From NCBI RefSeq assembly GCF_900129875.1, contig NZ_FQXC01000003.1:124001-188000 (forward strand): a DNA stretch of 64,000 nucleotides. The letters are read 5' to 3'. Under the pieces are notes generated by a model, which worked only from the letters and a program-made list of their open reading frames with translations, made no database searches and was not told where the DNA came from. Positions 18,374-57,518 of this stretch are shown here, piece after piece; the first letter of the stretch is position 1, and the number at the start of each line of letters is the position of its first letter. The position numbers and the translations under genes were made by a program. This stretch comes from Marivita hallyeonensis (GTDB taxonomy: Bacteria > Pseudomonadota > Alphaproteobacteria > Rhodobacterales > Rhodobacteraceae).

Positions 18374-18443
18374 CATTCGAAGCCTGTGGAAATCTCGAAA
18401 ATTTTGCATGCCGCGCGGTCAGGATGCGCTTAGATTGTGCGCC

Positions 18444-19043
18444 ATGCCTTTGAATGTGCGCGGTTTCGAAATCTATTCCGGTTACTTCGATGTGTCCGAA
18501 CAGACGTTTCTGGTGGAGGAGATCCGTAGCTGCCTTCGCGCCGCACCGCTCTTTCAACCCGTGACCCCACGCGGAAACCCCATGTCGGTTCGCATGAGTT
18601 CTGCCGGACAGTTTGGGTGGGTCAGCGACCGCCAAGGCTATCGCTATGAACCAAAGCACCCCTCGGGCGTGGCGTGGCCCGCGATCCCCGAACGGTTGCT
18701 CGAAACGTGGCGTGATCTTCTTCCCACAGCACGTCCGCCAGAATGCTGTTTGATCAACTGGTACGCGTCAGACGCCAAGATGGGCATGCATCAGGACAAG
18801 GACGAAGCTGACATGGACCAGCCAGTGGTTTCGGTATCCCTGGGGGACGAGGCCCTGTTTCGCATGGGGAACCAGACGAAAGGCGGCAAGACCGAGTCGA
18901 TCTGGCTCCGATCCGGTGATGTGGTCGTAATGAACGGTCCAGCGCGACGCGCTTTCCACGGGATCGATAGGGTCCGTGCAAACAGTTCGACTCTTCTGCC
19001 AAACGGGGGCCGTATCAATCTGACCCTTCGCGTTGTGACCTGA
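18444..19043 (+). CDS. alkB: AlkB-type DNA repair dioxygenase
   Basis: AlkB uses iron, 2-oxoglutarate and oxygen to remove methyl groups such as 1-methyladenine and 3-methylcytosine from DNA. In the 199-residue product the iron ligands are His116 and Asp118 (MHQDKDE) and His172 (AFHGIDRV). The conserved NWY is at 105-107 and the 2-oxoglutarate-binding arginine is in GRINLTLRV near the end. The ATG at 18444 is chosen from homology (MPLNVRGFEIY); no clear ribosome-binding site is visible. It is divergent from dnaK, and its stop abuts the stop of the converging permease gene (TGATCA). It is unrelated to the alkane hydroxylase of the same name at 61553. Confidence 0.93.
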   Translation: MPLNVRGFEIYSGYFDVSEQTFLVEEIRSCLRAAPLFQPVTPRGNPMSVRMSSAGQFGWVSDRQGYRYEPKHPSGVAWPAIPERLLETWRDLLPTARPPECCLINWYASDAKMGMHQDKDEADMDQPVVSVSLGDEALFRMGNQTKGGKTESIWLRSGDVVVMNGPARRAFHGIDRVRANSSTLLPNGGRINLTLRVVT

Positions 19044-19874
19044 TCAGCGCCGCGCGGCCCACGACACGGATGCATGTCGCCGCGTGTAGAATTCACCCAT
19101 CAAACCGATCATCAAGAGAGCGAGCGTGAGATACGCAACGTACTCCCAGTTGGTGTTGCGCGGCACGTAGTTGATGAATGCGTATCCGCGCGCCTGATCG
19201 ATGGTGTGGAACAACGGGTTCCAGTCGAAAAAGGCAATCATGGACCCCGGCAGCGAATTGGCGACAAACATCTTGCCCGACGCGATCATGTTTGCACGGC
19301 GGTAAATCTGAGACGCCATGCTGACGAAGACCGGGAACCAAGGCTGCAGAGCGAAAAACACCAAGCCAACAGCGCCACCCGAAACCCAGGACAAAAGAAA
19401 CATGCCAATCACTGGCATCGGATCGATCACTTCGGTCAAAACGTACGGATTCACCGCCACGTCGTACACGAAGAGGATGATAATGACCGACAGGGTCTGG
19501 ATATAAAGTATACCCAGCATGCTCGACACGATGGAGATGAAGGTGTTCATCGGTGCGTGCTGCATCATGGCAGATGTCGGACCTTCGGCACCCAAAACAG
19601 CGGCAACAGCCTTGTTGTGGGTCATGAACATGAAGATCCCGGTCAGCAGAAAGATGACGAAATCACCGCGCAGCGCGATGCCTTTGAGACCGAGGATAGA
19701 GAACATGACATAGAAAAAGGTCACGAACAAAAGGGATTGCAGAACGCTAATGAAGATCGAAAGAAATGCGTTTCCGTGCTTCTTGCGGATAGAGCGTACG
19801 GTCGAGTGATAGATCAACTCGAGAATATTGACGGCACCCGAGGCCCGCGTTCGTGGTGCGGTGTTTCCGAACAT
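19044..19874 (-). CDS. ABC-2 type permease of the polysaccharide-export (KpsM-like) kind
   Basis: The 276-residue protein has about six membrane segments (for example FISVLQSLLFVTFFYVMFSI, FVIFLLTGIFMFM and VIGMFLLSWVSGGAVGLVF) and a cytoplasmic N terminus. The late segment ANMIASGKMFVANSLPG before a helix-ending FFDWNPLFHTIDQARG resembles permeases that export capsular or O-antigen polysaccharide. No ATPase partner is beside it; the nearest ABC ATPases in the window (lptB, and the gene at 44563) are of other types. It is divergent from cysQ and the glycan cluster, and it may export the product of that cluster. Confidence 0.82.
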   Translation of the reverse strand: MFGNTAPRTRASGAVNILELIYHSTVRSIRKKHGNAFLSIFISVLQSLLFVTFFYVMFSILGLKGIALRGDFVIFLLTGIFMFMTHNKAVAAVLGAEGPTSAMMQHAPMNTFISIVSSMLGILYIQTLSVIIILFVYDVAVNPYVLTEVIDPMPVIGMFLLSWVSGGAVGLVFFALQPWFPVFVSMASQIYRRANMIASGKMFVANSLPGSMIAFFDWNPLFHTIDQARGYAFINYVPRNTNWEYVAYLTLALLMIGLMGEFYTRRHASVSWAARR

Positions 19875-19994
19875 CGTAAATCTGCCTCTGCCTCAGCCCG
19901 CGTTTCGACGTCAGTTGATCCGACTGTTGTTGCGGACAATCGTTAACGCGATGATAAGGGACGCGTGCTTTCAAATCAATCAAGACGGGGTCCG

Positions 19995-20798
19995 ATGACT
20001 GTTGACTATGATGCATTGATGCAAACCTTGCGCCGCCTCGCGTTGGAAGCGGGTGACCGGATCATGGAGATCTATGACTCCGACGATTTCGAAGTCCGCT
20101 CAAAGTCTGACAGCAGCCCCGTGACAGAAGCCGACGAAGCGGCGGATGCACTGATTTCGGCCGGCCTTCGTCGCGCGTTTCCCGAGATCGCTCTGGTAAC
20201 GGAAGAGCAATCGGAAACCCACGACCTCGACGTACGGGATTTTCTGATTGTCGATCCTCTGGATGGCACAAAGGAATTCATCAACCGTCGTGGCGATTTC
20301 ACCGTCAATATCGCGCTGGTGGAGGATGGTGTGCCGACATTTGGCGTGGTCTATGCGCCTGCGAAGCAACGGCTTTTCTACACCAATGGCGCTGGCGGCA
20401 GTGTTGAGGAAGCCGGGCCGTTTGCCAAGGACACTATTGGAGTCGCAAAACCGATCCGCGTATCGACGCCTGACACGTCGGCACTGATGGTGGTGGCGTC
20501 AAAGTCGCACCGGGATCAGGCGACCGACGACTACATCAAAAAGTACACCGTCAAAGACAGCAAAAGCGCGGGGTCGTCCCTGAAGTTTTGCCTTGTTGCG
20601 ACCGGCGAGGCCGACTTCTACCCACGGCTGGGCCGGACCATGGAGTGGGATACAGCGGCCGGGCACGCCGTTCTTGCCGGAGCCGGCGGTCGCGTCCTCC
20701 GCTTGGACGATCTAACACCTCTGGTCTACGGCAAGCCGACCTTTGCCAATCCGTTCTTCGTCGCCACCGCGCCGGGGGTAGACCTTATTCCCGTGTGA
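19995..20798 (+). CDS. cysQ: 3'(2'),5'-bisphosphate nucleotidase CysQ
   Basis: CysQ converts 3'-phosphoadenosine 5'-phosphate (PAP) to AMP, clearing the by-product of PAPS-dependent sulfate transfer. The 267-residue product has the inositol-phosphatase-type metal motifs: SSPVTEAD, Glu70-Glu71, DPLDGTKEF at 87-95 and EWDTAAGHAVL near residue 220. The ATG at 19995 (MTVDYDALM) is chosen from homology. The stop lies seven bases before the GT2 gene, so it heads the glycan gene train that ends in a sulfotransferase. That context points to PAP recycling during glycan sulfation as well as general sulfur metabolism. Confidence 0.93.
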   Translation: MTVDYDALMQTLRRLALEAGDRIMEIYDSDDFEVRSKSDSSPVTEADEAADALISAGLRRAFPEIALVTEEQSETHDLDVRDFLIVDPLDGTKEFINRRGDFTVNIALVEDGVPTFGVVYAPAKQRLFYTNGAGGSVEEAGPFAKDTIGVAKPIRVSTPDTSALMVVASKSHRDQATDDYIKKYTVKDSKSAGSSLKFCLVATGEADFYPRLGRTMEWDTAAGHAVLAGAGGRVLRLDDLTPLVYGKPTFANPFFVATAPGVDLIPV

Positions 20799-20805
20799 CC
20801 GGGCA

Positions 20806-22062
20806 ATGACACACCGTCTGGTCAGCGTGGTCGTTGTCAGTTGGGACAGGCCCGACTGGTTGCGACGCTGTCTTTTGGCAGTTGGCCAGATGGATCACCC
20901 AAGTTTCGAGGTCGTCGTCGTCGCATGCGCCTCTGGTGTGAAGGTGGCCGAGTTGGTGCGACTGCCGGTTGCCAAAGCCATCATTCCAATCGACAAACCC
21001 AATATTTCTGTTGCGCGCAACTTGGGCATTGGCGCAGCACATGGGGAGGTCGTCGCATTCATTGACGACGACGCGGTGCCGGAACCCACATGGGTCTCGC
21101 ATTTGGTGGCTGCCTTTGATGACCCGTCCGTTGTGCAGGCAGGTGGTGTCACCTTGGGTCGTAACGGCATTTCGGTACAGCACGCGGCCGCGCGGGTCTC
21201 GCTGTCAGGCGTCTCCGAGGACGTGCCAATTGAAACCGAAGCGCCTTCGGTCCTGTCTCCGTCAGCCAAAGCCTGGCCACGGCTGCACGGCACAAACATG
21301 GCGATCCGGCGAAGCGCTCTTGTGGAGCATGGAGGCTTCGACGAACGCTTTTCCTTCTACCTCGATGAGACCGACCTCACGATGCGCATCGCACAAGCGG
21401 GCGGTACGACGATGCATGTTCCGAAGGCGATCGTGCATCATGCGAGCGGGCCAAGCCGGTTTCGAAGCGCAAATCGCGTTCCTCTGCGCCTGTTCGAGAT
21501 CGGGAGATCAGCCGCGGTCTTTCACGCAAAGCACGTGGCTGAAAACAACCGTTACGCGGCACGTGCAGACTTCCTGCAGGAACGAAAGTGCTGGCTATTG
21601 CGGCACATGCAAGGCGGGACACTGACGCCGGACGATGTCTTCAGTCTGATGCGCGAGCTTACGAAAGGTTATGCGCTTGGAACGACACTGACGAAAAAGA
21701 CACCCTCGTTCTCGGACAAGGTGAATGTGGATTACGTCGCTCCGGAAGCGGCTTCGCCTTCCGGTGACGTGTCCTTGGTCGTTCAGAGCACCAACCGAAG
21801 GCAAATCCTCGAGAAAGCCGCACAGGTGGTGCGAGAGGGCACGCGCGTGACCGTTTTCGATTTCACTGCCACGGCGCAATACCACCGGGTGTCGTTTTCT
21901 GACGAAGGTTACTGGCATCACACTGGCGGTATCTTCGGACGCATGCGCAGAGACGAGCCGCTCATTAAATGGGCGACCCGCGCACAGCGCGTCAGCGACT
22001 CACTCGCGTCACTTGACGGGGTGCGATCCGCCGGTCCTTTGTTTGCGGAAACAGAACAATAA
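20806..22062 (+). CDS. Glycosyltransferase family 2
   Basis: The 418-residue protein has a GT-A fold N terminus: VSVVVVSWDRPDWLRRCL, then ISVARNLGIGAAHGE and the nucleotide-sugar/metal motif FIDDDAVPEPTW. The acceptor-side segment GGFDERFSFYLDETDLTMR contains the ED-like motif common in GT2 enzymes. A C-terminal region of about 130 residues has no family I recognise. There is no membrane segment, so it is cytoplasmic or peripheral. Donor and acceptor sugars cannot be read from sequence. It starts seven bases after cysQ. Confidence 0.88.
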   Translation: MTHRLVSVVVVSWDRPDWLRRCLLAVGQMDHPSFEVVVVACASGVKVAELVRLPVAKAIIPIDKPNISVARNLGIGAAHGEVVAFIDDDAVPEPTWVSHLVAAFDDPSVVQAGGVTLGRNGISVQHAAARVSLSGVSEDVPIETEAPSVLSPSAKAWPRLHGTNMAIRRSALVEHGGFDERFSFYLDETDLTMRIAQAGGTTMHVPKAIVHHASGPSRFRSANRVPLRLFEIGRSAAVFHAKHVAENNRYAARADFLQERKCWLLRHMQGGTLTPDDVFSLMRELTKGYALGTTLTKKTPSFSDKVNVDYVAPEAASPSGDVSLVVQSTNRRQILEKAAQVVREGTRVTVFDFTATAQYHRVSFSDEGYWHHTGGIFGRMRRDEPLIKWATRAQRVSDSLASLDGVRSAGPLFAETEQ

Positions 22063-22175
22063 CCCGGAAACGACCGCATTTATTCCCAAGTTATGTCATA
22101 CCCCGCGTCAGATAAGTGTGCCATAATGATCACCGCGCTTTAAGACGCGAAAGACAAAGATAAGGAGCAGCCACG

Positions 22176-23066
22176 ATGCGTAGAAAAGTGACAAAGGCCG
22201 TATTTCCCGTAGCCGGCCTTGGCACTCGGTTTTTGCCGGCAACGAAATCCGTGCCGAAGGAAATCATGACGCTGGTTGACCGTCCTCTGGTCCAATACGC
22301 GATTGACGAGGCGCGCGCCGCCGGGATCAAGGAATTCATTTTCATCACCTCGCGCGGCAAGAGCGCGCTTGAGGATTACTTTGACGAGGCACCCGTTCTT
22401 GAACGCGAGCTGCGCAAAAAGGGCAAGACAGAGCTTCTTGAGACGCTGAAGAACACCAACATGGAAAGCGGCGCGATTGCTTACATGCGCCAGCACAAGG
22501 CGCTGGGGCTTGGACATGCCGTGTGGTGCGCGCGCCGTTTGATTGGGGACGAACCCTTTGCCGTGATGCTGCCGGATGATGTCATCTCGGCCGAAAAACC
22601 CTGTCTGCAACAGATGGTCGAAGCTTACGAGGAAACCGGCGGAAACATGGTCGCCGCGATGGAAGTCCCGCATGAAAAGACATCGAGCTACGGCATTCTG
22701 GATGTGAAAGAAGACATGGGCGCAATGGTGTCCGTGCAGAACATGGTCGAAAAGCCGAACATCGACGAAGCCCCCTCGAACCTTGCAGTCATCGGGCGTT
22801 ACATTCTGGATCCTGCCGTCCTGAGGAACCTGAACAAAAAGAAAACCGGCGCGGGTGGCGAGATCCAACTGACAGACGCCATCGCGCAGGAAATCGACGG
22901 CACAGGTGTTTACGGCTACCGCTTCCGTGGGCAGCGCTTCGATTGCGGGTCGAAGGCGGGATTCCTGCAGGCGACAGTTGCGTTTGGCCTCGCTCGTGAC
23001 GACCTGAAAGACGATTTGCGTGGCTTCCTCGAGTCAGTCATGCAAATCGACAACGCAGCCGAGTAA
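22176..23066 (+). CDS. galU: UTP-glucose-1-phosphate uridylyltransferase
   Basis: GalU makes UDP-glucose from UTP and glucose 1-phosphate. The 296-residue product has the nucleotidyltransferase signature AGLGTRFLPATKSVPKEI, then FAVMLPDDVI and GGEIQLTDAI. AAGGAG lies eight to nine bases before the ATG. With galE directly downstream it supplies UDP-glucose and UDP-galactose to the flanking glycosyltransferases. The 113 bases between the GT2 gene and galU may hold a separate promoter, but I see no convincing -35/-10 pair there. Confidence 0.96.
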   Translation: MRRKVTKAVFPVAGLGTRFLPATKSVPKEIMTLVDRPLVQYAIDEARAAGIKEFIFITSRGKSALEDYFDEAPVLERELRKKGKTELLETLKNTNMESGAIAYMRQHKALGLGHAVWCARRLIGDEPFAVMLPDDVISAEKPCLQQMVEAYEETGGNMVAAMEVPHEKTSSYGILDVKEDMGAMVSVQNMVEKPNIDEAPSNLAVIGRYILDPAVLRNLNKKKTGAGGEIQLTDAIAQEIDGTGVYGYRFRGQRFDCGSKAGFLQATVAFGLARDDLKDDLRGFLESVMQIDNAAE

Positions 23067-23073
23067 CGCTTCG

Positions 23074-24054
23074 ATGAAGATCCTCGTGACGGGCGGTGCT
23101 GGCTATATCGGATCGCACGCCTGCAAGGCACTGGCGCGGTCCGGCTTCACACCCATCACGTTCGACAACTTTTCCACCGGATGGCGTGAAGCTGTGCGGT
23201 TCGGTCCGTACGTTGAGGGCGACCTTACGGACAAAGGGACGGTCGAGAACGCATTCAAAAAGCACCAGCCGGACGCCGTTCTGCATTTCGCGGCGTTAAG
23301 CCGGGTGGATGAAGCGATGGCCAATCCGGGGCTCTACTGGCGCAACAATGTGCTTGGATCTTTGAACCTTGTCGAAACGGCGGTAGAGCACGGTTGCCTC
23401 GATTTCGTGTTTTCATCGACCTGCGCCACCTACGGTGATCAGGATGGCGTCGTCCTCGACGAAGACACGGTTCAAGCCCCCCTGAACGCATATGGCGCCT
23501 CCAAACAGGCGGTTGAGCGAATCCTGCACGATTTCAGCACGACGCATGGACTGCGGCACGTCATCTTCCGCTACTTCAACGTGGCAGGGGCAGATCCCGA
23601 TGCGGAAGTCGGCGAATTCCACAGACCCGAAACGCACCTTATACCGATCGTCCTCGATGCCGTTGCCGGCGCGCGCGATCAGGTGACGATCTACGGGACG
23701 GACTATCCGACCGAGGACGGAACCTGTGTGCGCGATTACGTGCATGTCTCTGACCTTGTCGATGCGCATATTCTTGGATTGCGCTGGTTATTGGACGGCA
23801 AGGAAAACCGGGTGTTCAATCTTGGCACAGGGTCGGGCTTTTCGGTGCGGGAAGTGATAGACGCAGCCCGCCGCGTAACGAACCGCGAAGTCCCGACAGA
23901 GATCGGTGACCGGCGACCGGGGGACGCAATCAAGCTTGTTTCAGGGTCAAGCCGGGCAGAGGAAGAGCTGAACTGGCAACCCACCAAATCGACCATGCCA
24001 CAGATGATCGAAGACGCGTGGCGCTGGCATCAAGTTGCCGATTACAAGGAATAG
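23074..24054 (+). CDS. galE: UDP-glucose 4-epimerase
   Basis: GalE interconverts UDP-glucose and UDP-galactose with bound NAD. The 326-residue product is an extended short-chain dehydrogenase: the Rossmann motif GGAGYIGSH is at residues 8-16, the catalytic pair is Tyr140 and Lys144 (YGASK), and HFAALSRVDEAM and FRYFNVAGAD follow the family pattern. The start at 23074 (MKILVTGGAGYIG) lies seven bases after the galU stop. The 3' end overlaps the next glycosyltransferase gene by about 20 bases. Confidence 0.95.
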   Translation: MKILVTGGAGYIGSHACKALARSGFTPITFDNFSTGWREAVRFGPYVEGDLTDKGTVENAFKKHQPDAVLHFAALSRVDEAMANPGLYWRNNVLGSLNLVETAVEHGCLDFVFSSTCATYGDQDGVVLDEDTVQAPLNAYGASKQAVERILHDFSTTHGLRHVIFRYFNVAGADPDAEVGEFHRPETHLIPIVLDAVAGARDQVTIYGTDYPTEDGTCVRDYVHVSDLVDAHILGLRWLLDGKENRVFNLGTGSGFSVREVIDAARRVTNREVPTEIGDRRPGDAIKLVSGSSRAEEELNWQPTKSTMPQMIEDAWRWHQVADYKE

Positions 24055-25252
24055 CCCCGCTGCGGCACATCTTCTTGATGTGACGCGAACTGTGCGCCGC
24101 GCGGGATATCGTCCAACGGGCATAGACAGGGCGGAGCGCGCTTACATCGCTCATCTTGTGGCATGTCCAACTCCACTTTTCGGCTTGGTGCGGACCAAGC
24201 TGGGATATCTACTGCTGGACAAAAAGGGATGCGCCGCGCTGCTTGCGCACTGCGACACGCCCAAATGGCAGAACGCCGATCTTCTTTCAAAACTCAGCGG
24301 TAGCTCCGACACACCGCGGGCCGCGACGGAAAGCGGGTTGCGAAAGATCGCGGTGGACCGTGCGACAGCCGCCAGGTTGCGTCCGCTGCTGCAAAGGCAT
24401 CTCCCAAGCGGAGCGGTTTATCTCAACGTCGGCCAGACGAACTTCAACGATCGTCTGATCCATGCGCTCCGCGCCTGCGACACGCTTCGGATTGCCGTGT
24501 ACCTTCACGATACGATCCCGTTGGATTGGCCAGATCTGCAAACGCAAAAGTCGCGGTTAAAATTCAAACGCCTGTTCGACCGTGTCGACAGGCACGCGGA
24601 TCTCGTCTTGTGCAACTCTCAGGACACCAAGATGACCGCCCTCCGACACGCGCGTGGGCTAACGGAAGACAAAGTGCATGTGATCTGGCCGGGCCTGCCC
24701 GAGATCGACCCAGGACATCCACCAAAGGGGCCTTGGACGGACAAGCCATATTTCATGGCCATCGGCACCATCGAACCTCGCAAGAACATCGGCTTCCTTC
24801 TCGATATGTGGGAAGACTTCAGAGAACCCGACAGTCCACACCTGCTGATTTGCGGACGGCGTGGATGGCTGAGCGAAGATGTTTTTGCTCGACTGGACAA
24901 CCAACCAGGACATGTTCACGAACTTCCCGATCTGCCAGACCCGGCGATGTGGGCACTCTTGAAAAACAGTTGCGGCTTGTTGTTCCCGAGCATCGTCGAA
25001 GGGTTCGGCTATCCAGCGATGGAAGCGGCACATCTGGGGGTGCCAGTCATCTGCAATGCGTTACCCAGCGTCAAAGAAGTGCTGGATGATTACCCTATTT
25101 ACGCAGACTCCTCCGACAGCTACCTTTGGATGCATAATATCAAGCAACTGGCGCAAGGACGTCGGGGTCAAAGTGGTGAGCAGTTGAGTACTGAAGTAGT
25201 TGAGACGCCGGATTGGCAGGCGCATTTCAATCGGCTGTTTACCATCCTTTGA
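24035..25252 (+). CDS. Glycosyltransferase family 4 (GT-B fold)
   Basis: The 405-residue product has the C-terminal GT-B donor domain of GT4 enzymes: FMAIGTIEPRKNIGFLLDMW followed by LFPSIVEGFGYPAMEAAHLG, which carries the E-x7-E nucleotide-sugar motif. The N-terminal half (LLDVTRTVRRAG, then YLHDTIPLDWPD) is the acceptor domain. The start is uncertain. The longest frame begins at a TTG (24035) inside the end of galE and keeps the conserved LLDVTRTVRR block, whereas later GTG codons would remove it. Mannosyl or glucosyl transfer is typical of the family, but the sugar is not identified. Confidence 0.85.
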   Translation: MPITRNSPAAAHLLDVTRTVRRAGYRPTGIDRAERAYIAHLVACPTPLFGLVRTKLGYLLLDKKGCAALLAHCDTPKWQNADLLSKLSGSSDTPRAATESGLRKIAVDRATAARLRPLLQRHLPSGAVYLNVGQTNFNDRLIHALRACDTLRIAVYLHDTIPLDWPDLQTQKSRLKFKRLFDRVDRHADLVLCNSQDTKMTALRHARGLTEDKVHVIWPGLPEIDPGHPPKGPWTDKPYFMAIGTIEPRKNIGFLLDMWEDFREPDSPHLLICGRRGWLSEDVFARLDNQPGHVHELPDLPDPAMWALLKNSCGLLFPSIVEGFGYPAMEAAHLGVPVICNALPSVKEVLDDYPIYADSSDSYLWMHNIKQLAQGRRGQSGEQLSTEVVETPDWQAHFNRLFTIL

Positions 25253-25294
25253 TACCGCGCGTTACGAGCGACCACTGGCAGAGAAAGCTGTTCA

Positions 25295-26305
25295 TTGGGC
25301 TTGGTGCAAAGATATGGGCTCAGGCTCCAGCGCAAGCGCTGGCGCATACGCGCGTTTCGTAAACGCCGCGAACTGAAGCCTGTTGCCAATCGCACCGATC
25401 AAATCCGCAAGAGCGATATTCTGCTGTTCTGCACGTCTCGGAACGAAGGTGTCCGACTACCGTATTTCCTGAAGTACTACCGCGACATGGGCGTGTCGCA
25501 TTTTCTGTTCGTCGACAACGACAGCACCGATGGCAGCCTGGAGATGCTGTCCGAACAACCGGACGTGTCCGTCTGGCACACACGCAAAAGCTACAAGCGG
25601 TCGCGCTTTGGCATGGACTGGATGAACTGGCTTTTGCGTCGTTATGGACACGATCACTGGTGTCTGACCGTCGACCCGGATGAGCTATTCGTTTATCCGT
25701 TTTGTGACTCGCGACCACTGCCCGCGTTGACGGATTGGCTGGAAGCGTCATCCATCCGCTCGTTCAGCGCGATGCTTCTGGATATGTATCCGAAGGGCCG
25801 GATCGATGCGGTTCCCTATCAGGCAGGTCAGAACCCTTTGGACATCGCCTGCTGGTTCGACTCCGGTAACTACACTCTGAAGCGCAACCACCTTTTGGGG
25901 AACCTGTGGATTCAGGGCGGCCCTAGGGCGCGCATCTTTTTCCCGGACAAACCGGAACAAGCCCCGGCATTAAACAAGATCCCGCTGGTGAAGTGGCATC
26001 ACCGCTATGCCTACGCGAGTTCGACCCACATGCTTCTGCCGCGGGGCCTGAACTACGTCTATGACGAATGGGGTGGAGAAAAAGCCTCGGGCGCGCTTTT
26101 GCACACCAAATTCCTGAGCACCTTTAGCGAAAAAGCTGTGGAAGAGCTGAAGCGTCGGGAGCACTACGCCGGCAGTCAGGAATACGTGGCCTACGCAAGC
26201 GCGCTTCAGGACAATCCCGAGCTGTGGTGCAAATGGTCAGAAAAGTACATCAACTGGCGCCAGCTTGAGATCCTCGGTCTCATGTCCATGGGCAACTGGG
26301 CATGA
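25295..26305 (+). CDS. Glycosyltransferase family 2-like protein (Glyco_tranf_2_4 type)
   Basis: The 336-residue protein shows TSRNEGVRLPYFLKYYRDMG, then FLFVDNDSTDGS and LTVDPDELFVYP, the pattern of the short GT2-like family often found in alphaproteobacterial surface-glycan loci. The N terminus is very basic (RLQRKRWRIRAFRKRRE), which may hold the enzyme on the membrane. The start is uncertain between TTG 25295, TTG 25301 and GTG 25304; none has a strong ribosome-binding site. The stop overlaps the GT14 start by four bases (ATGA). Confidence 0.82.
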   Translation: MGLVQRYGLRLQRKRWRIRAFRKRRELKPVANRTDQIRKSDILLFCTSRNEGVRLPYFLKYYRDMGVSHFLFVDNDSTDGSLEMLSEQPDVSVWHTRKSYKRSRFGMDWMNWLLRRYGHDHWCLTVDPDELFVYPFCDSRPLPALTDWLEASSIRSFSAMLLDMYPKGRIDAVPYQAGQNPLDIACWFDSGNYTLKRNHLLGNLWIQGGPRARIFFPDKPEQAPALNKIPLVKWHHRYAYASSTHMLLPRGLNYVYDEWGGEKASGALLHTKFLSTFSEKAVEELKRREHYAGSQEYVAYASALQDNPELWCKWSEKYINWRQLEILGLMSMGNWA

Positions 26306-28005
26306 GCATCGGGATCGTCATGCTGACCCACACCGCGCTGCATCGGGCAGAGCAAGTGGCGCGGCATTGGACAAAGGCGGGATGCCCTGTTGTCATTCAC
26401 GTCGACCAGATCGTGTCCAACAAGCGCTACAAGGTTTTCAAGGAGCGGTTGAGCGACGATCCTCTGATCCGCTTCTCAAAGCGTCACCGATGCGATTGGG
26501 GCACATGGGGTCTTGTCGCGGCAAGTCAGGACGCAAGCGAATTGATGCTCGCCGAGTTCGAAGAAGTGAGCCATGTCTACCTTGCCTCGGGGTCTTGCCT
26601 GCCGCTGCGCCCTGTGCAGGAGCTGATCGACTATCTCAAGGCAAGACCGCGCACAGACCACATCGAAAGCGCAACCACGGCGGATGTGCCGTGGACCATC
26701 GGTGGTCTTGACGAAGAACGCTTCACGATGCGCTTTCCGTTTTCCTGGCGGCGCAACCGCTACTTGTTCGACCGCTTTGTCGAGTTCCAGCGCAAGTTCG
26801 GGTACAAGCGCAAGGTTCCCGATGGCCTTACACCTCACATGGGCAGCCAGTGGTGGTGCCTGACGCGGCAGACCTTGTCTTCGATACTGCAAGACCCGAA
26901 ACGCAAGGAATACGATCGATACTTCCGACATGTCTGGATTCCCGATGAGAGCTATTTTCAAACGCTCTCACGGTTGTATTCGACCAATATCGTCAGCCGG
27001 TCCCTGACCCTGTCGAAGTTCGATTTTCAGGGCAAGCCACACATCTTCTATGACGATCACCTACAGCTTTTGCGGCGGTCGGATTGTTTTGTCGCGCGCA
27101 AAATCTGGCCAAATGCCGAACGTCTGTACGAAACCTTTTTGAACCCCAAACCCGGGGAATTGAACCTTCAGGAACCTAACCCGGGGAAAATTGACCGGAT
27201 TTTCGCCAAGGCCGTGGATCGCAGAACGCGCGGGCGACCGGGCCTTTACATGCAAAGCCGGTTTCCGAACGAGGATTGGGAAAACGGCGTAACCGCGGCC
27301 AAGTACTCGGTGTTTCAGGGGTTTACCGAACTGTTCACAAATTTCGAACATTGGCTGTCCACGGTGACCGGAGCGCAGGTGCACGGACATCTGTTCGCAC
27401 CTGACCGTGCACATTTCGCTGATGGTCAAACTGTGATGAACGGTGCGCTGTCCGACAACGCCACACTACGGGACTATGATCCAAAGATGTTCCTGACGAA
27501 CCTGCTTTGGAACACGCGGGGCGAACGCCAGTGTTTTCAACTAGGTCCGAACAGCACGCGGCATGTGATCTGGGACATCTGCAAGGATGCAAATGCGCAG
27601 GTGTCAGTTATCAGCGGGGCCTGGGCGATCCCGCTGTTCCAGTCGAACCGGACCTTTGCGGAACTGCGCCGCGAGGCGGCCCATCTTCAGAAAATTGAAA
27701 CTGAAATGCTCGACGCTTTGCGGTCGCCCTATTCCAAGTGCCGCAGGCGTATCTGGACCATGGCGGAATTCATTGAAAGCCCGATGGAAGCAACACAGGT
27801 CATCGTGGATGAAATCGGTGTCCTTCCGAACCGCCGTCTGACCGAAGCCCCGAAGATGGTTGATCTCACTGGCTTTGGGCAGTTCCTGCAGAACCTCAAG
27901 AACCAGGGCATGCACCCCTATCTCATGGGGGACTTCCCTGCAGATCCGGTTGTGCAGACACCACGGCGCCATACGCCACCGCGTCCCTATCTGGTGAAAA
28001 AGTAA
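26302..28005 (+). CDS. GT14-type (core-2/I-branching, xylosyltransferase-like) glycosyltransferase with C-terminal extension
   Basis: The first 290 residues of this 567-residue protein match the Branch/GT14 pattern: SIGIVMLTHTALHRAEQVAR, VYLASGSCLPLRPV, GSQWWCLTRQTL and VWIPDESYFQTL. Family members add GlcNAc or xylose to a glycan or protein. A further 270 residues form a separate domain of the sort I know from Rhodobacterales as DUF5927/DUF5928; its function is unknown. A shorter relative is encoded at 45915-47492. The start overlaps the upstream stop, and the stop lies three bases before the sulfotransferase gene, so the three products are probably made together. Confidence 0.85.
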   Translation: MSIGIVMLTHTALHRAEQVARHWTKAGCPVVIHVDQIVSNKRYKVFKERLSDDPLIRFSKRHRCDWGTWGLVAASQDASELMLAEFEEVSHVYLASGSCLPLRPVQELIDYLKARPRTDHIESATTADVPWTIGGLDEERFTMRFPFSWRRNRYLFDRFVEFQRKFGYKRKVPDGLTPHMGSQWWCLTRQTLSSILQDPKRKEYDRYFRHVWIPDESYFQTLSRLYSTNIVSRSLTLSKFDFQGKPHIFYDDHLQLLRRSDCFVARKIWPNAERLYETFLNPKPGELNLQEPNPGKIDRIFAKAVDRRTRGRPGLYMQSRFPNEDWENGVTAAKYSVFQGFTELFTNFEHWLSTVTGAQVHGHLFAPDRAHFADGQTVMNGALSDNATLRDYDPKMFLTNLLWNTRGERQCFQLGPNSTRHVIWDICKDANAQVSVISGAWAIPLFQSNRTFAELRREAAHLQKIETEMLDALRSPYSKCRRRIWTMAEFIESPMEATQVIVDEIGVLPNRRLTEAPKMVDLTGFGQFLQNLKNQGMHPYLMGDFPADPVVQTPRRHTPPRPYLVKK

Positions 28006-28008
28006 AGC

Positions 28009-29445
28009 ATGGACCGTTTTGACCACTTCGTCGTTTTCGCTGAGATGCGAACCGGGTCGAACCTGCTTGAGGATTACATCAATCAGGTAGACGGCCTGCT
28101 CTGCCATGGCGAGGCGTTCAACCCAAATTTTATCGGCTACCCGAACCGAACCGACATTCTCGGCGTCAGCCAGGCACAGCGCGAAGACAACCCCGAGCGG
28201 CTTTTGAAAGCGATCAAATCCGGGACAGATTGGCTGGGCGGGTTCCGGTATTTCCACGATCACGACCCGCGTATCCTGCCCGCGATCCTTTCCGATCCCC
28301 GCTGCGCGAAAATCATTCTCACGCGGAACCCACTGGACAGTTACATCAGCCTCAAAATCGCGCGGGCGACAGACCAGTGGAAACTGACAAACGTGCGCAA
28401 CCGCAAAGACGCGAAGGCGTATTTCGATTTGCACGAGTTCGAGAGCCATCTGGCACAGACACAAGGCTTTCAGCTGCAAATCCTGCGCGCTCTGCAGGTG
28501 ACCGGCCAGACGGCGTACTACATCGGCTACGACGACCTGCATAATCCGGAAGTGCTCAGTGGACTTGCAACATGGCTTGGTGCCAAGGCGATGCCGGACA
28601 GCTTTGAAAGCAATCTGAAGCCGCAAAACCCGCAATCTCTGTCAGAGAAGGTGGCGAATTTTGACCAGATGGATGTGGCGTTGCGCGGATTGGATCGGTT
28701 TGATCTGACACGGACGCCGAACTTCGAACCAAGACGTGGTCCGGTGGTGCCGGCATACATGGCTTGCAACTCGGTGCCGCTTTTGTTCATGCCTATCCGA
28801 TCCGGGCCTGAACATCAGGTGACCGAATGGATGCAACAACTTGACGGGACCGGAAAAGGTTTGGTCGCCAAGTTCAACCAGAAGTCCCTGCGACAGTGGA
28901 TGCAGGACAATCCGGGTCATCAGCGTTTCACGGTATTGCGGCACCCGCTGGCCCGCGCCCACGCTGCGTTCTGCGATTTCATCCTGAATACAGGACCGGG
29001 CAGCTTTGCCATGATCCGCAATCAATTGATGCGGTTCTACGATCTGGAACTGCCGGACGACATGGCCGACGCCGGATACGACGACCGGGCGCATGCACGC
29101 GCGTTCGACGGCTTTCTTGGATTCCTCAAGGCCAATCTCAACGGGCAGACGAGTGTTCGTGTCGACGCTAACTGGGCAAGCCAGGTCACCTGTCTTCAAG
29201 GCATGTCTGAATTCTGCCTGCCCGATCAGGTGGTTCGGGAAGATGAAATTGCGACAGCACTACCAACGTTGGCTCAAAAGCTTGGCGTGACCAATCTATC
29301 CCAACCTCCTCGATCTGGTCACGAACAGCAAGACAGGCTTTTCCGCATCTACACCCCGCAGCTCGAGAAGCTGTGCCGAGATGTGTACCCGCGCGATTAC
29401 ATGATGTTTGGATTTGGTGATCTGGACATGAAAAACCCCGCCTGA
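28009..29445 (+). CDS. Two-domain sulfotransferase (Stf0-like N-terminal half)
   Basis: The 478-residue product looks like two sulfotransferase modules. The N-terminal half has the PAPS 5'-phosphosulfate loop FAEMRTGSNLLEDY (about residues 10-23) and the 3'-phosphate motif TRNPLDSYISL with Arg106 and Ser114, as in Stf0/NodH-like enzymes. The C-terminal half begins around residue 250, with PIRSGPEHQVTEW in the loop position and RHPLARAHAAF at 311-321. There the serine expected from the 3'-phosphate motif is alanine, so this half is probably not catalytic. The gene ends the glycan train and likely sulfates the sugar product. Confidence 0.83.
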   Translation: MDRFDHFVVFAEMRTGSNLLEDYINQVDGLLCHGEAFNPNFIGYPNRTDILGVSQAQREDNPERLLKAIKSGTDWLGGFRYFHDHDPRILPAILSDPRCAKIILTRNPLDSYISLKIARATDQWKLTNVRNRKDAKAYFDLHEFESHLAQTQGFQLQILRALQVTGQTAYYIGYDDLHNPEVLSGLATWLGAKAMPDSFESNLKPQNPQSLSEKVANFDQMDVALRGLDRFDLTRTPNFEPRRGPVVPAYMACNSVPLLFMPIRSGPEHQVTEWMQQLDGTGKGLVAKFNQKSLRQWMQDNPGHQRFTVLRHPLARAHAAFCDFILNTGPGSFAMIRNQLMRFYDLELPDDMADAGYDDRAHARAFDGFLGFLKANLNGQTSVRVDANWASQVTCLQGMSEFCLPDQVVREDEIATALPTLAQKLGVTNLSQPPRSGHEQQDRLFRIYTPQLEKLCRDVYPRDYMMFGFGDLDMKNPA

Positions 29446-33919: not shown

Positions 33920-34121
33920 AGTTGGCACTTGGGGGTTGGTGCTTCCATTAGGGAGTTGCGAAAGGTTCGTCTGCTGAAGTCTGCCACATAGCCTGAAAGC
34001 CTGAATATCCGGTTTCCTGAACCGACGTCCTGTTTGTCGTGCTGCGCGGCAAGCAACCAGTCTTTGCACGCCTTTGTCAGCTTCGCCGCGGACCCCGCTC
34101 AAAGGGTCAAGGGGTGTTCAA

Positions 34122-34811
34122 ATGACACTGCACGTTCGCCAGCCGCTGCCAGGCACAGAAATCGAAACATTGGTCAACGCGGCCTTTGTCCAAACCGAAC
34201 CGAAAAGCCTCTATCGCAATTACATCAAGCGCTTGCTTGATGTGATGCTTGTCCTGATCGCCGCTGTGCCAGTCGTTCTGGTTCTTGGAGTTTGCGCGCT
34301 TCTGGTGTCTCGAGATGGCGGCTCGCCCTTCTACAGCCAGACCCGCGTCGGGCAATTCGGCAAGACGTTCAAGATGTGGAAGCTGCGGAGCATGGTCGCC
34401 AATGCGGACGAAGCACTGGAACGCCACCTCTCCCAGAACCCCCAAGCGCGCGCTGAGTGGAACCGGAACCAGAAGCTTCGCAATGATCCGCGGATCACAA
34501 AGGTCGGCCGCATCCTGCGCAAAACGTCACTTGATGAGTTGCCGCAACTCTGGAACGTCCTGAAGGGGGAAATGTCTCTTGTCGGGCCGCGTCCGATGAT
34601 GGTGGATCAGCAAGACCTGTATCCCGGCTCCGCTTACTACGCCCTGCGTCCAGGTCTGACCGGCTTCTGGCAGGTCTCGGTACGTCACGAGAGCAGCTTT
34701 GCGGAACGTGCGCATTACGATGCCGAGTACCTGAGCAAAGTGAACCTTGCTCAGGATATCGCGGTGATGTGGAAGACGCTGAGCGTCGTGACCAAAGGCA
34801 CAGGCTGCTGA
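34122..34811 (+). CDS. Undecaprenyl-phosphate sugar phosphotransferase, ExoY-like
   Basis: This family starts exopolysaccharide synthesis by moving a sugar phosphate (often galactose or glucose) from UDP-sugar to undecaprenyl phosphate. The 229-residue product has one membrane segment (LLDVMLVLIAAVPVVLVLGV) and the catalytic domain with KMWKLRSM, KTSLDELPQLWNVLKGEMSL, VGPRPM and PGLTGFWQVS. The ATG at 34122 has AAGGGG upstream. It stands alone after a long regulated leader. It could begin the glycan completed by the transferases at 20806-28005, about 5 kb away, but that is inference. Its stop abuts the next gene's stop (TGATCA). Confidence 0.92.
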   Translation: MTLHVRQPLPGTEIETLVNAAFVQTEPKSLYRNYIKRLLDVMLVLIAAVPVVLVLGVCALLVSRDGGSPFYSQTRVGQFGKTFKMWKLRSMVANADEALERHLSQNPQARAEWNRNQKLRNDPRITKVGRILRKTSLDELPQLWNVLKGEMSLVGPRPMMVDQQDLYPGSAYYALRPGLTGFWQVSVRHESSFAERAHYDAEYLSKVNLAQDIAVMWKTLSVVTKGTGC

Positions 34812-45914: not shown

Positions 45915-47492
45915 CTAATCTGCAAACAGGTGGTCTGTACGCGCAATTTCAAGCGCTTGCTCGCGGGATGCCGAAAGGAAGGTCGCAAGCGCTTTTGCGT
46001 TCACTTCGGCGCTGTTTTCTTCGTGTATACACAGATAGTTTTCGAACTCCGCATCACGGATCCGGTCGCTTTCATGGACGATGTCGTTCCGGATCGTGGG
46101 CAGCAGACGCATGAGCGTCTCGACCGGCGTGCGATCGCCAGCCAGCCCCACACGTGTGGCGTGGCCGATGAGATAGTCGTCCGAAAAATTGCACTGCACT
46201 TCCAATAGCCGGGTCGTGGCGCGGTCACGGCAGAAATCCTCAAGCAGATCAAGGTTGCCGGGGTCCATACACACCACCATGCGATCACTGTCGTAGTAGT
46301 CGAACATCATCCGCATGAGCGACCGCCGGTGGCGATGACGTTTGCCAAGCGTGGTCTGAATACCGCCCATATCAGGCAATTCGGTGTGTTCTTCGTTGAA
46401 CAGGTATTCGATGCAGGGAATGTTCGTCAGTTTTCGGATGCGAGACACAAGCCGCTTGGCCACGTGCCACTTCTTGCAAACGACGATGAGCAATTCCCGT
46501 TCGCGCCCCAGCGTGCTTTCTTTTTCCCAGAACCGCGCCGCAAAGCGGCGACCGATCCGGCCTTTGCCGCTCAGGAACTTGTAGAGCGACCGGCCTTCGT
46601 TCGAGATTTCGAAATTCACACCTTTGGCAGAGTAGAGCGAGCCCAGCCGTTCCTTGAGTTCGAGCGCTTCGGGGCTGATCTTGCGAGCGAACAGGAAGTC
46701 CTGGCTTAGCAGGAGGTCGAAATGGTCGTTGTAGAAGGTGACCGGCATCCCGTAGTCCGAGAACATGAGGAATGTCAGCGTCCGGCACTCGATTTCTTGC
46801 TCAGGCACCAGATGACGGACGAGGGTCTGAAAGAATGTCTCGTCGGGAATCCAGGTTGTGCTGAAGAACCGTTTTACATCTGGGCGCTGCTTGATGAAGT
46901 CGAGTATCGCTTCAACTGTGCGTCTGCGCAGGCACCACCATTGGCTGCCGATCTGGATCTCGAGATCTTCCGGCACTTTGCGCGACAAACCCAGTTTTTT
47001 CTGCAATTCGAGACTTTTGTAGAACAACCACTTGTTGTTGCGTTCGTTCAGGAAGTGCCGATAGATCAGCCGTTCTTCCTTCATGCCGGTCTTGATCCAG
47101 TCCGAGGCGAAGAAATCGAAACTTTCAATGAAATCCGCTTCGGTGCGGTCCAGATAATCGTGGGCGTATTCTGCCGTTTTGATCGCCTGGCAATCTCCGG
47201 ACAGCATGTAGAAATGTGTGGCGCGCGGGAAGGCCTCGACGGCGGCTTCGACCGCGTAGAGGGTGGCCTGAACGAGCGACCATTCCCCCCAACCGCATTT
47301 GATGCGCTTGTTGGCGAACGCCACGTTCGGATTGTCTGAAAGGGCCGTGTGAATGGTTTTGAACGCCGCCGCGTCCGCGCGCGCATCGAAATGAATTGCG
47401 ATGTAATCCCCGACCGCCGTCAGACTAAGCGCCTGACGAATGATGGCGTCAGGGTCCTTGTGACACAGCAATATGAAGGCAATGTTTGCCAT
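45915..47492 (-). CDS. GT14-type glycosyltransferase with C-terminal DUF5928-like domain
   Basis: The 525-residue protein shares the Branch/GT14 layout with the one at 26302: NIAFILLCHKDPDAIIRQ, FYMLSGDCQAIKTAEY, GSQWWCLRRRTVEAI and TWIPDETFFQTLVRH. The C-terminal half, from about residue 320, is a different domain (KKWHVAKRLVSRIRK, then FDYYDSDRMVVCMDPG and FSDDYLIGHATRVG) that I associate with DUF5928 of Rhodobacterales; its function is unknown. It is divergent, across 141 bases, from a sulfotransferase gene, and is followed by a HIT gene. GlcNAc or xylose transfer is a family inference. Confidence 0.85.
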   Translation of the reverse strand: MANIAFILLCHKDPDAIIRQALSLTAVGDYIAIHFDARADAAAFKTIHTALSDNPNVAFANKRIKCGWGEWSLVQATLYAVEAAVEAFPRATHFYMLSGDCQAIKTAEYAHDYLDRTEADFIESFDFFASDWIKTGMKEERLIYRHFLNERNNKWLFYKSLELQKKLGLSRKVPEDLEIQIGSQWWCLRRRTVEAILDFIKQRPDVKRFFSTTWIPDETFFQTLVRHLVPEQEIECRTLTFLMFSDYGMPVTFYNDHFDLLLSQDFLFARKISPEALELKERLGSLYSAKGVNFEISNEGRSLYKFLSGKGRIGRRFAARFWEKESTLGRERELLIVVCKKWHVAKRLVSRIRKLTNIPCIEYLFNEEHTELPDMGGIQTTLGKRHRHRRSLMRMMFDYYDSDRMVVCMDPGNLDLLEDFCRDRATTRLLEVQCNFSDDYLIGHATRVGLAGDRTPVETLMRLLPTIRNDIVHESDRIRDAEFENYLCIHEENSAEVNAKALATFLSASREQALEIARTDHLFAD

Positions 47493-47633
47493 TCAGGGGG
47501 GCATCTGCTCTCATTTATCCTTGTATCTGATTTGATACGCGCGTTCCGCCATTGAATAAACTGCCTTTCTTTGATTTTTTGTTTACGTTACGGGACCACA
47601 AGAGCCCGGTACGAGGCAAAAGGCGGCAGGACT

Positions 47634-48452
47634 ATGGGATTTCCCGGAACGTGGATGACCGAGAGCGAAAGCATGGTCTATCGCGTCGTGCCCAAATGCG
47701 CCTGCTCGACCATCGGGCAGATCATGTTCTATTCCGATCATGGCACTTTCTTCGATGGCGACATTCACGATGCGCAAAGCGGTCTGCACAAGTGGGCGCT
47801 TGAACATAGCAAGGACCCGATCACGCAGCGTGTCCAAGCGCATGACACGTTCGCCTTTACCTGTGTGCGAAACCCTTACACGCGGATCCTGAGCTCGTTC
47901 TTCGACAAGATTTGCGGCATTCAGCGGAACGGCAAACGCTATCGCGGCAACCTCGTGCCGCTGTTGATCCAGAAATACGGGATCGAAGTTGGCGGTGCGG
48001 ACGGCAAACAGGAATTCGACCAGATCCAGAGTTTCCGCCGGTTCCTGCTATTCGCGCGCGATACGATCCGCTGGCGGCGTCCGATGGACCCCGATATCCA
48101 CTGGTCAGCGATGTCGGGCCATATCAGCACGTTCATCGTGAATGGCGGGCATTATGACCACATCTTCTGGACCGAGAGCTTCAATGACGGCATGGCCGAA
48201 GTGTTGGGGCGGACGAAGACGAAGAAGAAGGTCGATCTGAAGAAAATCCCCCGCTTCAATGAAAGCGAGGGGCATGGGCCGAAGCGCGCGCACCCCGTAG
48301 AAGACTACTTCGACGACCTGTCAATGCACTTGGTCTACGAGATGTACAAACGCGATTTCGAGCTGTTCAAATACGACTTCGAAAACCCGGGCAACAAGAT
48401 GCCCATCGGCGAAATCGACCTGGACGAAGTGCACGCCAAGCTGGGCGATTGA
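47634..48452 (+). CDS. Sulfotransferase family 2-type protein
   Basis: The 272-residue product has the PAPS 5'-loop VVPKCACSTIGQIMF (PKxACST at residues 20-26) and the 3'-phosphate motif VRNPYTRILSSFF with Arg79 and Ser87/Ser88. The histidine-rich part after SQRV/VQAHDTFAF follows the family order. It is probably a cytoplasmic carbohydrate sulfotransferase. The ATG at 47634 (MGFPGTW) is chosen over a longer frame from 47571; a short AGG-type ribosome-binding site is present. Together with the divergent GT14 gene it forms a second glycan-modifying pair. Confidence 0.87.
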   Translation: MGFPGTWMTESESMVYRVVPKCACSTIGQIMFYSDHGTFFDGDIHDAQSGLHKWALEHSKDPITQRVQAHDTFAFTCVRNPYTRILSSFFDKICGIQRNGKRYRGNLVPLLIQKYGIEVGGADGKQEFDQIQSFRRFLLFARDTIRWRRPMDPDIHWSAMSGHISTFIVNGGHYDHIFWTESFNDGMAEVLGRTKTKKKVDLKKIPRFNESEGHGPKRAHPVEDYFDDLSMHLVYEMYKRDFELFKYDFENPGNKMPIGEIDLDEVHAKLGD

Positions 48453-56122: not shown

Positions 56123-57471
56123 ATCACCGACGCCAGGTCAAAATCGTCGGTGACGACACCAACAACCTGTAACAAGAACTCGCCGGTCGTGGGATCAAGG
56201 GCATCCGCGTAGAACGTATCGGCCGCATCGCGCGCATCGACCTCGGTGATTGCGAAACCATCGAATAAATCCATGACTGTCTTTGCATGGTCGGTATCGG
56301 ACATTCCAAGATGGACCGCGAAATACGCGCCGATGTCGGTCTTCGTCTCGAGGTAGATACGGTCGGCCTCTTGCTGTGCAATGAAATCGGGGCCGACGTC
56401 AGGGGGGATCGGTGCTTTTGCTCCGTTGATCACCTCGAGAATAAAACTGTCTCGAGTAACGCCGCCACTTTCGAGCGCGTTGGCCCAGAAAGCCAGACCC
56501 TCAGCATCCGGGGTACGACCCAGGACGTTGTTGTAGACAACAGTCGCAAAATCGAGCGTGCTTGTGCCCGGAGGATAGGCCGCGACCGTCTCGGGCTGCG
56601 GGGCAAAGAGTTCGGCCATTTCTTTGAGTGAAACGCCATTCGCAAAGGCCGTGGCCCAGAAGTTCAGGCCGACAGCATCTGGTGCCCGATTGAAGTACGC
56701 GATGTAGAGTTCGATGATGAGCTCAAGCTCTTCCGCTGTAAGTTGCCCTGCCCCACCGAAACTGGCGAAGTCGAAGGCCGGTATGGTAGTCTCACCTTCA
56801 AATTTCAGGCGTTCGATCCCGCTAATCGTGTCAGTCCCGTCGCCATCGACACGCCGATCCTCCACCGTGATAGACGACGGTGTAATGACAATCGTATGGC
56901 TGTTCTGAGGGCCGGAATACTTTGCCGTGTCGACTCCAGCGCCACCTTGAATTGTATCGTTGCCTTCGTCACCCTGAAGCGTGTCGTTACCCTGCTGACC
57001 GAAAAGAGTGTCTGGGCCGTCAGTCCCCACCAGCATATCGGGGCCATCTGTTGGGGTCATATCGGTCGTCGGCGCACCGAAAGAGAGCTGCTGCGAAATA
57101 TTGACAATCGTATTCACGACGCCCGTGTTGTTCAGAATGACCTCGAACGAATCGATGTCCCAGAAACCAGGGCGATTGACCGAGAATTCGTAGGCGTAGA
57201 GTACGTCACCCGGCGACGCACCGTCTCCGAGAATTCCAGTTGTTGAATCGAAAAAGAAATCCCCAGTCTCGGTGACCTGCGAGCTGGTCAGCGTCGCGTC
57301 ATTGTCGACGATGCCGACATAGGGGGCCGGAGCAACTCCCGGAACCGGCGTGGCATTCACCAGACCCCGGATGAGTGTTTCGAACGTGGTACCAGCCGGC
57401 AATGCCTGGTCTGCGACGATGTTGATAAAAAATGTGCTACCGAATTGACCGGACTCAAGCCTGAAGGGCAC
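56119..57471 (-). CDS. RTX-type calcium-binding protein with DUF4214 domain (paralog 1)
   Basis: The 450-residue protein has a beta-rich N-terminal domain and RTX nonapeptides around residues 150-185 (GTDGPDTLFGQQGNDTLQGD and on). DUF4214 units follow from about 245 (LIIELYIAYFNRAPDAVGLN, VVYNNVLGRTPDAEGLAFW). There is no N-terminal signal peptide, as expected for a type I secretion substrate, and it ends with VVTDDFDLASVI. Start: GTG 57471 with GGAGG nine bases upstream. A closely similar gene lies 47 bases upstream on the same strand. No type I exporter is in the window. Confidence 0.88.
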   Translation of the reverse strand: MPFRLESGQFGSTFFINIVADQALPAGTTFETLIRGLVNATPVPGVAPAPYVGIVDNDATLTSSQVTETGDFFFDSTTGILGDGASPGDVLYAYEFSVNRPGFWDIDSFEVILNNTGVVNTIVNISQQLSFGAPTTDMTPTDGPDMLVGTDGPDTLFGQQGNDTLQGDEGNDTIQGGAGVDTAKYSGPQNSHTIVITPSSITVEDRRVDGDGTDTISGIERLKFEGETTIPAFDFASFGGAGQLTAEELELIIELYIAYFNRAPDAVGLNFWATAFANGVSLKEMAELFAPQPETVAAYPPGTSTLDFATVVYNNVLGRTPDAEGLAFWANALESGGVTRDSFILEVINGAKAPIPPDVGPDFIAQQEADRIYLETKTDIGAYFAVHLGMSDTDHAKTVMDLFDGFAITEVDARDAADTFYADALDPTTGEFLLQVVGVVTDDFDLASVI

Positions 57472-57518
57472 TGCTTATGCCTCCTTAGCAGTTAAAAAGA
57501 TGCGCTTAACTATAAAAA

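Follow-up and report, generated by a model that had tools for sequence, protein, structure and literature searches.

A Rhodobacteraceae-wide gene cluster that probably builds the chain of a Kdo-primed, putatively sulfated capsule

Here, we analyse a cluster of nine genes in Marivita hallyeonensis (family Rhodobacteraceae), located at positions 19044..29445 of a 64,000-nt stretch of contig NZ_FQXC01000003.1 (hereafter, the window), which probably directs synthesis of the chain of a conserved capsular polysaccharide. The open reading frames (ORFs) of the window bear out the gene content proposed in a first-pass annotation of this DNA, with genes, strands and coordinates all in agreement: a KpsM-like permease gene lies divergently at the head and is followed by cysQ, a GT2-family glycosyltransferase gene, galU, galE, a GT4-family glycosyltransferase gene, a second GT2-like gene, a GT14 gene and the gene of a two-domain sulfotransferase. 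The proteins encoded by the last two genes are listed below by domain.

19044..19874, minus strand: KpsM-like permease of the ATP-binding cassette type 2 (ABC-2) class, at the divergent head of the locus (VexB match, 7.5e-9, below the cut-off; profile match to KpsM 8tsh_C)
19995..20798, plus strand: cysQ, 3'(2'),5'-bisphosphate nucleotidase, converting 3'-phosphoadenosine 5'-phosphate (PAP) into adenosine monophosphate (AMP) (TIGR01331, above the cut-off)
20806..22062, plus strand: GT2-family glycosyltransferase (PF13641/PF00535)
22176..23066, plus strand: galU, uridine triphosphate (UTP)-glucose-1-phosphate uridylyltransferase (TIGR01099, above the cut-off)
23074..24054, plus strand: galE, uridine diphosphate (UDP)-glucose 4-epimerase (TIGR01179, above the cut-off)
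24035..25252, plus strand: GT4-family glycosyltransferase (PF00534)
25295..26305, plus strand: the second GT2-like gene, a PF13704 (Glyco_tranf_2_4) glycosyltransferase
26302..27096, plus strand: GT14 domain (Core-2/I-branching, xylosyltransferase-like) with a WIPDES motif (PF02485)
27097..28005, plus strand: DUF5927 domain fused to GT14 (PF19349, E 8.6e-155), seemingly a degenerate sulfotransferase-like domain by profile comparison
28009..28743, plus strand: N-terminal domain of the sulfotransferase, Stf0/NodH-like by fold and profile, with an RTGSN loop and a 3'-phosphate-type motif
28744..29445, plus strand: C-terminal domain of the sulfotransferase, PF03567-type (E 2.1e-5), with a loop that is variable among relatives

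The plus-strand genes are closely packed. From cysQ on, they are separated by 7, 113 and 7 bases, an overlap, 42 bases, another overlap and 3 bases, so that the earlier description of mostly 3-42 base gaps or overlaps holds for every junction save the 113-base gap between the GT2 gene and galU. Translation of cysQ may begin with the ATG at 19995 instead of the upstream GTG (19965). Two features were absent from the first-pass annotation, namely, the DUF5927 domain (PF19349) that makes up the second half of the GT14 protein and the kdsB gene that follows cysQ in part of the relatives.

The gene order is conserved far beyond the window. A scan of GTDB genomes with GT14 yielded at least 586 confirmed stretches, the best 80 of which served as named relatives; loci too short on one side were left out of the count for that side, which defines the testable loci. 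The sulfotransferase gene lies directly behind the GT14 gene in 77 of 78 testable named loci, within about a dozen bases in most of them, and the PF13704 gene precedes GT14 in 77/77. Divergent kpsM is linked in all 67 testable loci, galU and galE are found in 68 and 59 of 70, respectively, and ptsN lies behind the locus in 66/72. A cysQ gene unlinked to glycosyltransferase genes in relatives had been named in advance as an outcome that would speak against the locus reading; the comparison was run and placed cysQ upstream, on the same strand, in 69/69 testable named loci. The GT2 protein shows 34-55% identity in those relatives with a match, and the GT4 position is taken by a second PF13704 gene in some. 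A kdsB match was obtained in 36 of the 80 named loci, with cut-off loci counted in, and kdsB stands right after cysQ in the four such loci that were read (L037, L041, L057 and L076).

Because the best 80 are the most similar loci, 26 further regions were read from lower-scoring hits, hand-picked from 30 genomes (G133, G139, G285 and G290 were left out). The order is kept in 23 of these regions (L170-L192); individual genes are absent or substituted in places, and GT14 identity falls to as low as 36%. Both cysQ and kpsM are present in all 22 loci with a long enough contig, and L174 and L191 have no sulfotransferase. Of the remaining three regions, L193 is without the locus, L194 retains part of it and L195 (genome G116) carries an apparently broken GT14-DUF5927 gene, of which only parts match, next to an intact sulfotransferase gene. 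The proposal that these genes form one unit thus stands for the 80 closest named loci and 23 lower-scoring ones. A plasmid search with GT14 across 72,556 records gave matches in 17, each of which covers less than 80% of GT14.

The permease has no Pfam match at 1e-3, and its match to VexB is weak; a profile of 32 permease sequences, in turn, matches the solved KpsM (8tsh_C) with E 4e-7 over profile positions 20-264. Other components of a capsule pathway are encoded elsewhere in the genome. KpsS and KpsC, both matching PF05159 above the cut-off, are found at 430.8-435.0 kb of another contig (C9), with a KpsD-like ORF, named by eye, between them, and a KpsT/KpsE pair is located elsewhere on C9, at about 244.3-246.5 kb; the best matches of this pair (TIGR01010, 1.1e-48; VexC, 1.5e-26) are both below the curated cut-offs. 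Accordingly, the suggestion that the locus may export its own glycan gains from the KpsM-type permease and from the co-loss with KpsC/KpsS described below, and loses from the incompleteness of the exporter within the locus, with KpsT/KpsE and KpsS/KpsC elsewhere. Two additional observations concern exporter genes. A PF03567 sulfotransferase gene lies just upstream of the kpsE-kpsT pair on C9 (L104 4309-7762, about 244-248 kb of C9). We considered such a neighbour as a general second link between sulfation and the capsule, and rejected it: in a tblastn search (E 1e-3) of 1.5-kb flanks in 30 loci drawn from the 53 genomes in which KpsT has a match, this sulfotransferase was found next to kpsT in a single locus, that of the genome of the window itself, whereas kpsE is there in 30/30. 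Furthermore, a second KpsE-like gene, adjoined by a permease and an ATPase named by eye, is present on contig C17 (L107 512-3281), where the group is possibly a second capsule exporter.

The distribution of the locus was assessed in 292 genomes from 112 genera, drawn at the order level and all listed in the family of the window. GT14-DUF5927 (E below 1e-100) is found in 281 of these genomes and the two-domain sulfotransferase in 278. Both orthologues are present in 277 genomes and neither in 10; GT14 stands alone in four (G058, G197, G220 and G238) and the sulfotransferase in one, the aforementioned G116 with its seemingly broken GT14. In the 2x2 tables, which were computed from genome lists transcribed by hand, matches weaker than 1e-100 were scored as absent (G074, G116 and G173 for GT14; G058 and G197 for the sulfotransferase). 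At E 1e-10, PF05159, the KpsC/KpsS family, has a match in 1 of 14 control genomes and is missing in 6 of the 292 (G059, G074, G084, G093, G155 and G231), all six of which are among the 10 genomes without GT14 and sulfotransferase (Fisher p = 5.7e-10 and 3.7e-9, respectively, uncorrected for kinship). These six genomes belong to six genera, and other sampled members of three of the genera (g36, g24 and g51) keep both genes. With KpsT from the genome of the window as the query, a match (E 1e-40) was obtained in 53 of 61 genomes and, of the 18 genomes shared with the 292-genome set, as counted by reading the listings, only G093 and G173 are without KpsT, and both are also without the locus.

Taken together, the co-occurrence of GT14 and the sulfotransferase and their co-loss with KpsC/KpsS indicate that the locus is most likely the chain-building part of a Kdo-primed capsule (Kdo, 3-deoxy-D-manno-oct-2-ulosonic acid). 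We propose that its enzymes assemble the chain of a capsule conserved in Rhodobacteraceae. KpsS/KpsC would prime this capsule on poly-Kdo, sulfation would take place in the cytoplasm and KpsMT-KpsE would carry out the export; we assign to this reading a probability of roughly 0.72.

Several observations weigh against this proposal. No kpsT, kpsE, kpsC, kpsS or PAPS (3'-phosphoadenosine 5'-phosphosulfate) genes were seen inside the locus; the co-loss with KpsC/KpsS was observed in six genomes; and four genomes (G109, G140, G226 and G173) are without the locus and have PF05159. The three highest PF05159 scores listed are those of G109, G226 and G140, which perhaps carry another capsule type; the match of the fourth, G173, is weak (1.9e-12). 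The four genomes with GT14 and without an orthologue of the sulfotransferase imply that cells can sometimes do without sulfation by this enzyme. Moreover, lptBAC, which encode lipopolysaccharide (LPS) export proteins, lie near the locus in the window, and the locus itself is nearly invariant across the sampled family. Capsule loci are usually strain-variable, near-invariance being more usual for the LPS core. The product of the locus could, then, belong to LPS, as a core or O-chain that is conserved and sulfated, with KpsM exporting that chain or being a passenger. The near-universal conservation of the locus, the kdsB matches and the proximity of lptB-lptA-lptC would all fit such a role. Nevertheless, LPS synthesis would not require that GT14 and sulfotransferase be gone from all six genomes without PF05159, and KpsM is linked in every testable relative. 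Furthermore, G074, one of the PF05159-less genomes, keeps kdsB, galU, galE and cysQ, genes that LPS could need, whereas at most a remnant is left of kpsM, GT14 and the sulfotransferase. We therefore regard an LPS-building locus as unlikely and favour the capsule.

The case for sulfation of the glycan comes from the enzyme at the end of the cluster. Its N-terminal part has no Pfam match at 1e-3 and aligns with solved sulfotransferases, by fold with 1tex and by sequence profile with 9vki. The RTGSN loop is found in 78 of 79 sulfotransferase ORFs and in none of 79 GT14 ORFs. The C-terminal domain, in addition to its PF03567 match, aligns with the PF03567 sulfotransferase encoded at 47571-48452 of the window (hhalign, 89%); it has no PDB sequence match up to E 10 and is barely covered in the rows from VIA-align. 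The profiles of the two domains do not match each other beyond the linker. The two-domain sulfotransferase of the first-pass annotation is upheld, with phosphate-binding motifs and a C-terminal PF03567 domain, and the glycan made by the locus is predicted, from these sequence features, to be sulfated. The enzyme might instead have a lipid, a signal or a protein as its substrate and be in the locus by chance. The genome encodes other PF03567 sulfotransferases, which leaves room for such an activity, but the position of the gene directly behind GT14 in nearly all testable loci and the joint presence (277 genomes) and joint absence (10 genomes) of the two genes make this explanation very improbable compared with action on the capsule chain.

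A second sulfotransferase-like domain appears to be present in the GT14 protein. DUF5927 is found in none of the 14 control genomes, and a profile of 33 diverse members matches the N-terminal domain of the sulfotransferase (hhalign, 84.4%; E 7.1e-6; score 46.8 over 99 columns), against a best score of 23.96 among 150 column-permuted copies and of 19.8 for the reversed copy. The same profile gives no match to the profiles of the sulfotransferase C-terminal domain and KpsM. In a PDB profile search with DUF5927 alone, no sulfotransferase and nothing better than E 0.36 was retrieved. The structure model of GT14-DUF5927 is poor (mean pLDDT 56.9); a fold search with this low-confidence model matched the GT14 part, with no sulfotransferase among the 50 matches listed. 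From these comparisons, DUF5927 looks like a degenerate sulfotransferase domain that lacks the PAPS-binding loop and is fused to a glycosyltransferase. Elsewhere in the window (45915-48452), a second GT14 gene, encoding PF02485 and DUF5928 domains, lies divergently beside the PF03567 sulfotransferase gene, so that GT14 and sulfotransferase are paired here once more. As two GT14 matches are listed for most of the 292 genomes, this second GT14 gene may also be a core gene; DUF5928, compared as the single sequence of the paralogue, has no match to the sulfotransferase profiles.

The place of cysQ in the locus requires separate consideration. CysQ of the locus scores 269.3 bits on TIGR01331, against a cut-off of 228.8, and is the only one of the six PF00459 matches in the genome to exceed it, the other five scoring 56.5-118.6. 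As the only CysQ of the genome, it probably serves all sulfotransferases, and there are five PF03567 matches, that in the locus included, to share PAP removal. Moreover, cysQ is kept in L174 and L191, where the sulfotransferase is missing. In L194, whose genome has no PF05159 match, cysQ, kdsB, galU and galE remain beside dnaK, whereas kpsM, GT4, GT14 and the sulfotransferase were not found; the exceptions are a 50-residue remnant of GT14 and some weak matches of the GT2 type (24-32%). Thus, the locus seems to consist of general genes joined to capsule-specific ones, as judged from one such genome, and the earlier claim that it has its own PAP phosphatase is too strong. Whether cysQ, galU, galE and kdsB are simply housekeeping neighbours of the capsule genes (kpsM, GT2, GT4, GT2-like, GT14 and the sulfotransferase), with PAP removal uncoupled from the glycan, is about an even call. 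Against such uncoupling stand the same-strand linkage of cysQ in all testable loci, 69 named and 22 lower-scoring, and the 7 bases that separate cysQ from the next gene in the window. The use of PAPS in the cell also bears on this question. The sole APS (adenosine 5'-phosphosulfate) kinase match in the genome is a Sat-CysC fusion on another contig (C14), so that PAPS synthesis is encoded outside the cluster, and the cysteine pairs typical of APS-type reductases, CC and CxxC, are present in the sole CysH match. If the motif is read correctly, PAPS would be made for sulfotransferases rather than for cysteine, leaving PAP to the sulfotransferases; the curated scores are contrary or undecided, given that CysH passes models with PAPS-reductase names and the APS-reductase model falls below its cut-off. 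In any case, a housekeeping role of these four genes is compatible with the capsule proposal and corrects only the part that concerns cysQ.

Under the capsule proposal, the pathway would run as follows. GalU and GalE, judging from their families, would supply UDP-glucose and UDP-galactose, and four glycosyltransferases (GT2, GT4, PF13704 and GT14) would extend the chain on the Kdo primer. The N-terminal domain of the sulfotransferase, which has the appropriate motifs, would move sulfate from PAPS, provided by Sat-CysC, to the glycan, and CysQ would turn PAP released by this and other sulfotransferases into AMP. KpsM of the locus would pair with the distant KpsT/KpsE to export the chain. More speculatively, DUF5927 may bind the acceptor or provide a docking site for the sulfotransferase. 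A bolder version, which we consider possible and rather doubtful, is that a single, nearly invariant sulfated capsule, in contrast to the capsules of other bacteria, which differ from strain to strain, is made throughout the family by a linked pair of fusion enzymes, GT14-DUF5927 and the sulfotransferase with its degenerate second domain, the dead domains coupling sugar addition to sulfation by binding the acceptor or by docking.

Three further features of the window were recorded. A lone PF02397 sugar transferase, an initiating enzyme of the ExoY type, is encoded near the locus, at 34074-34811, and its distance from the locus is similar in the nine closest loci (L008-L016). Between dnaK and kpsM, at 18408-19043, is a gene identified by eye as AlkB-like (2-oxoglutarate oxygenase), which occupies the same place in many relatives. 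Two adjacent, similar proteins encoded at 56119-58880 resemble, by eye, calcium-binding repeat proteins with a common C-terminal part.

The gene combination had seemed unfamiliar at first pass, but cysQ and Kps genes have already been reported together in the sulfated capsule cluster of Cobetia marina KMM 1449, where the sulfated structure was determined (PMC11766843). According to the portion of that report available, the Cobetia system resembles the present one in its ABC-exported capsule, Kdo priming by KpsS/KpsC, glycosyltransferases, sulfotransferase and cysQ. The Cobetia cluster, however, includes PAPS synthesis genes, whereas in Marivita these and most Kps genes lie elsewhere, and the locus is family-wide. 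Vibrio sp. KMM 8419 likewise combines a Kps exporter, sulfotransferases and PAPS supply, but its clusters differ between related strains, kpsC is reported absent and the word cysQ does not occur in the main text as available (PMC11641403). The KpsMT-KpsE exporter of Schlegelella thermodepolymerans (8tsh), for which, in the accessible text, a Kdo-glycolipid substrate is modelled, is linked to the locus by the KpsM profile match; in the genome of the window, by contrast, the exporter genes are spread over at least two loci (PMC11041684). From the same bacterial family, the capsule cluster rcc01081-rcc01086 of Rhodobacter capsulatus, which provides the receptor of the gene transfer agent RcGTA, was considered as the same locus and rejected: as described in the part of the paper at hand, it includes lspL1 and the export genes wza/wzb/wzc, none of which is among the nine genes (PMC10218006).

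At the level of individual enzymes, the sulfotransferase is akin to those of the Stf0/NodH type (1tex, 9vki) in its N-terminal domain and differs from them by the fusion to a second, PF03567-type domain. Similarly, the GT14 domain resembles Core-2 N-acetylglucosaminyltransferase and xylosyltransferase 1, with the structure model being of low confidence, and is set apart by its fusion to DUF5927. In E. coli-type group 2 capsules, the kps genes form two blocks that flank one serotype region; here, unlike in that organisation, kpsM is the only kps gene in the locus and the others are on another contig.

Sulfated capsule clusters that combine Kps genes with sulfotransferases are already known. Among the papers listed in literature searches, none dealt with the family-wide locus, and DUF5927 is mentioned in none of the papers of the library searched. 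The placement of DUF5927 as sulfotransferase-like offers a first idea of function for this unnamed family.

Rhodobacteraceae include the roseobacters, which are abundant in the sea. If the capsule proposal is correct, the locus would be a stable source of sulfated polysaccharide, and its product would be a widely shared surface sugar, apparently uncharacterised so far in the literature found. With the locus present in 277 of the 292 genomes, such a capsule would constitute a main part of the surface that these bacteria present to phages, algae and grazers.

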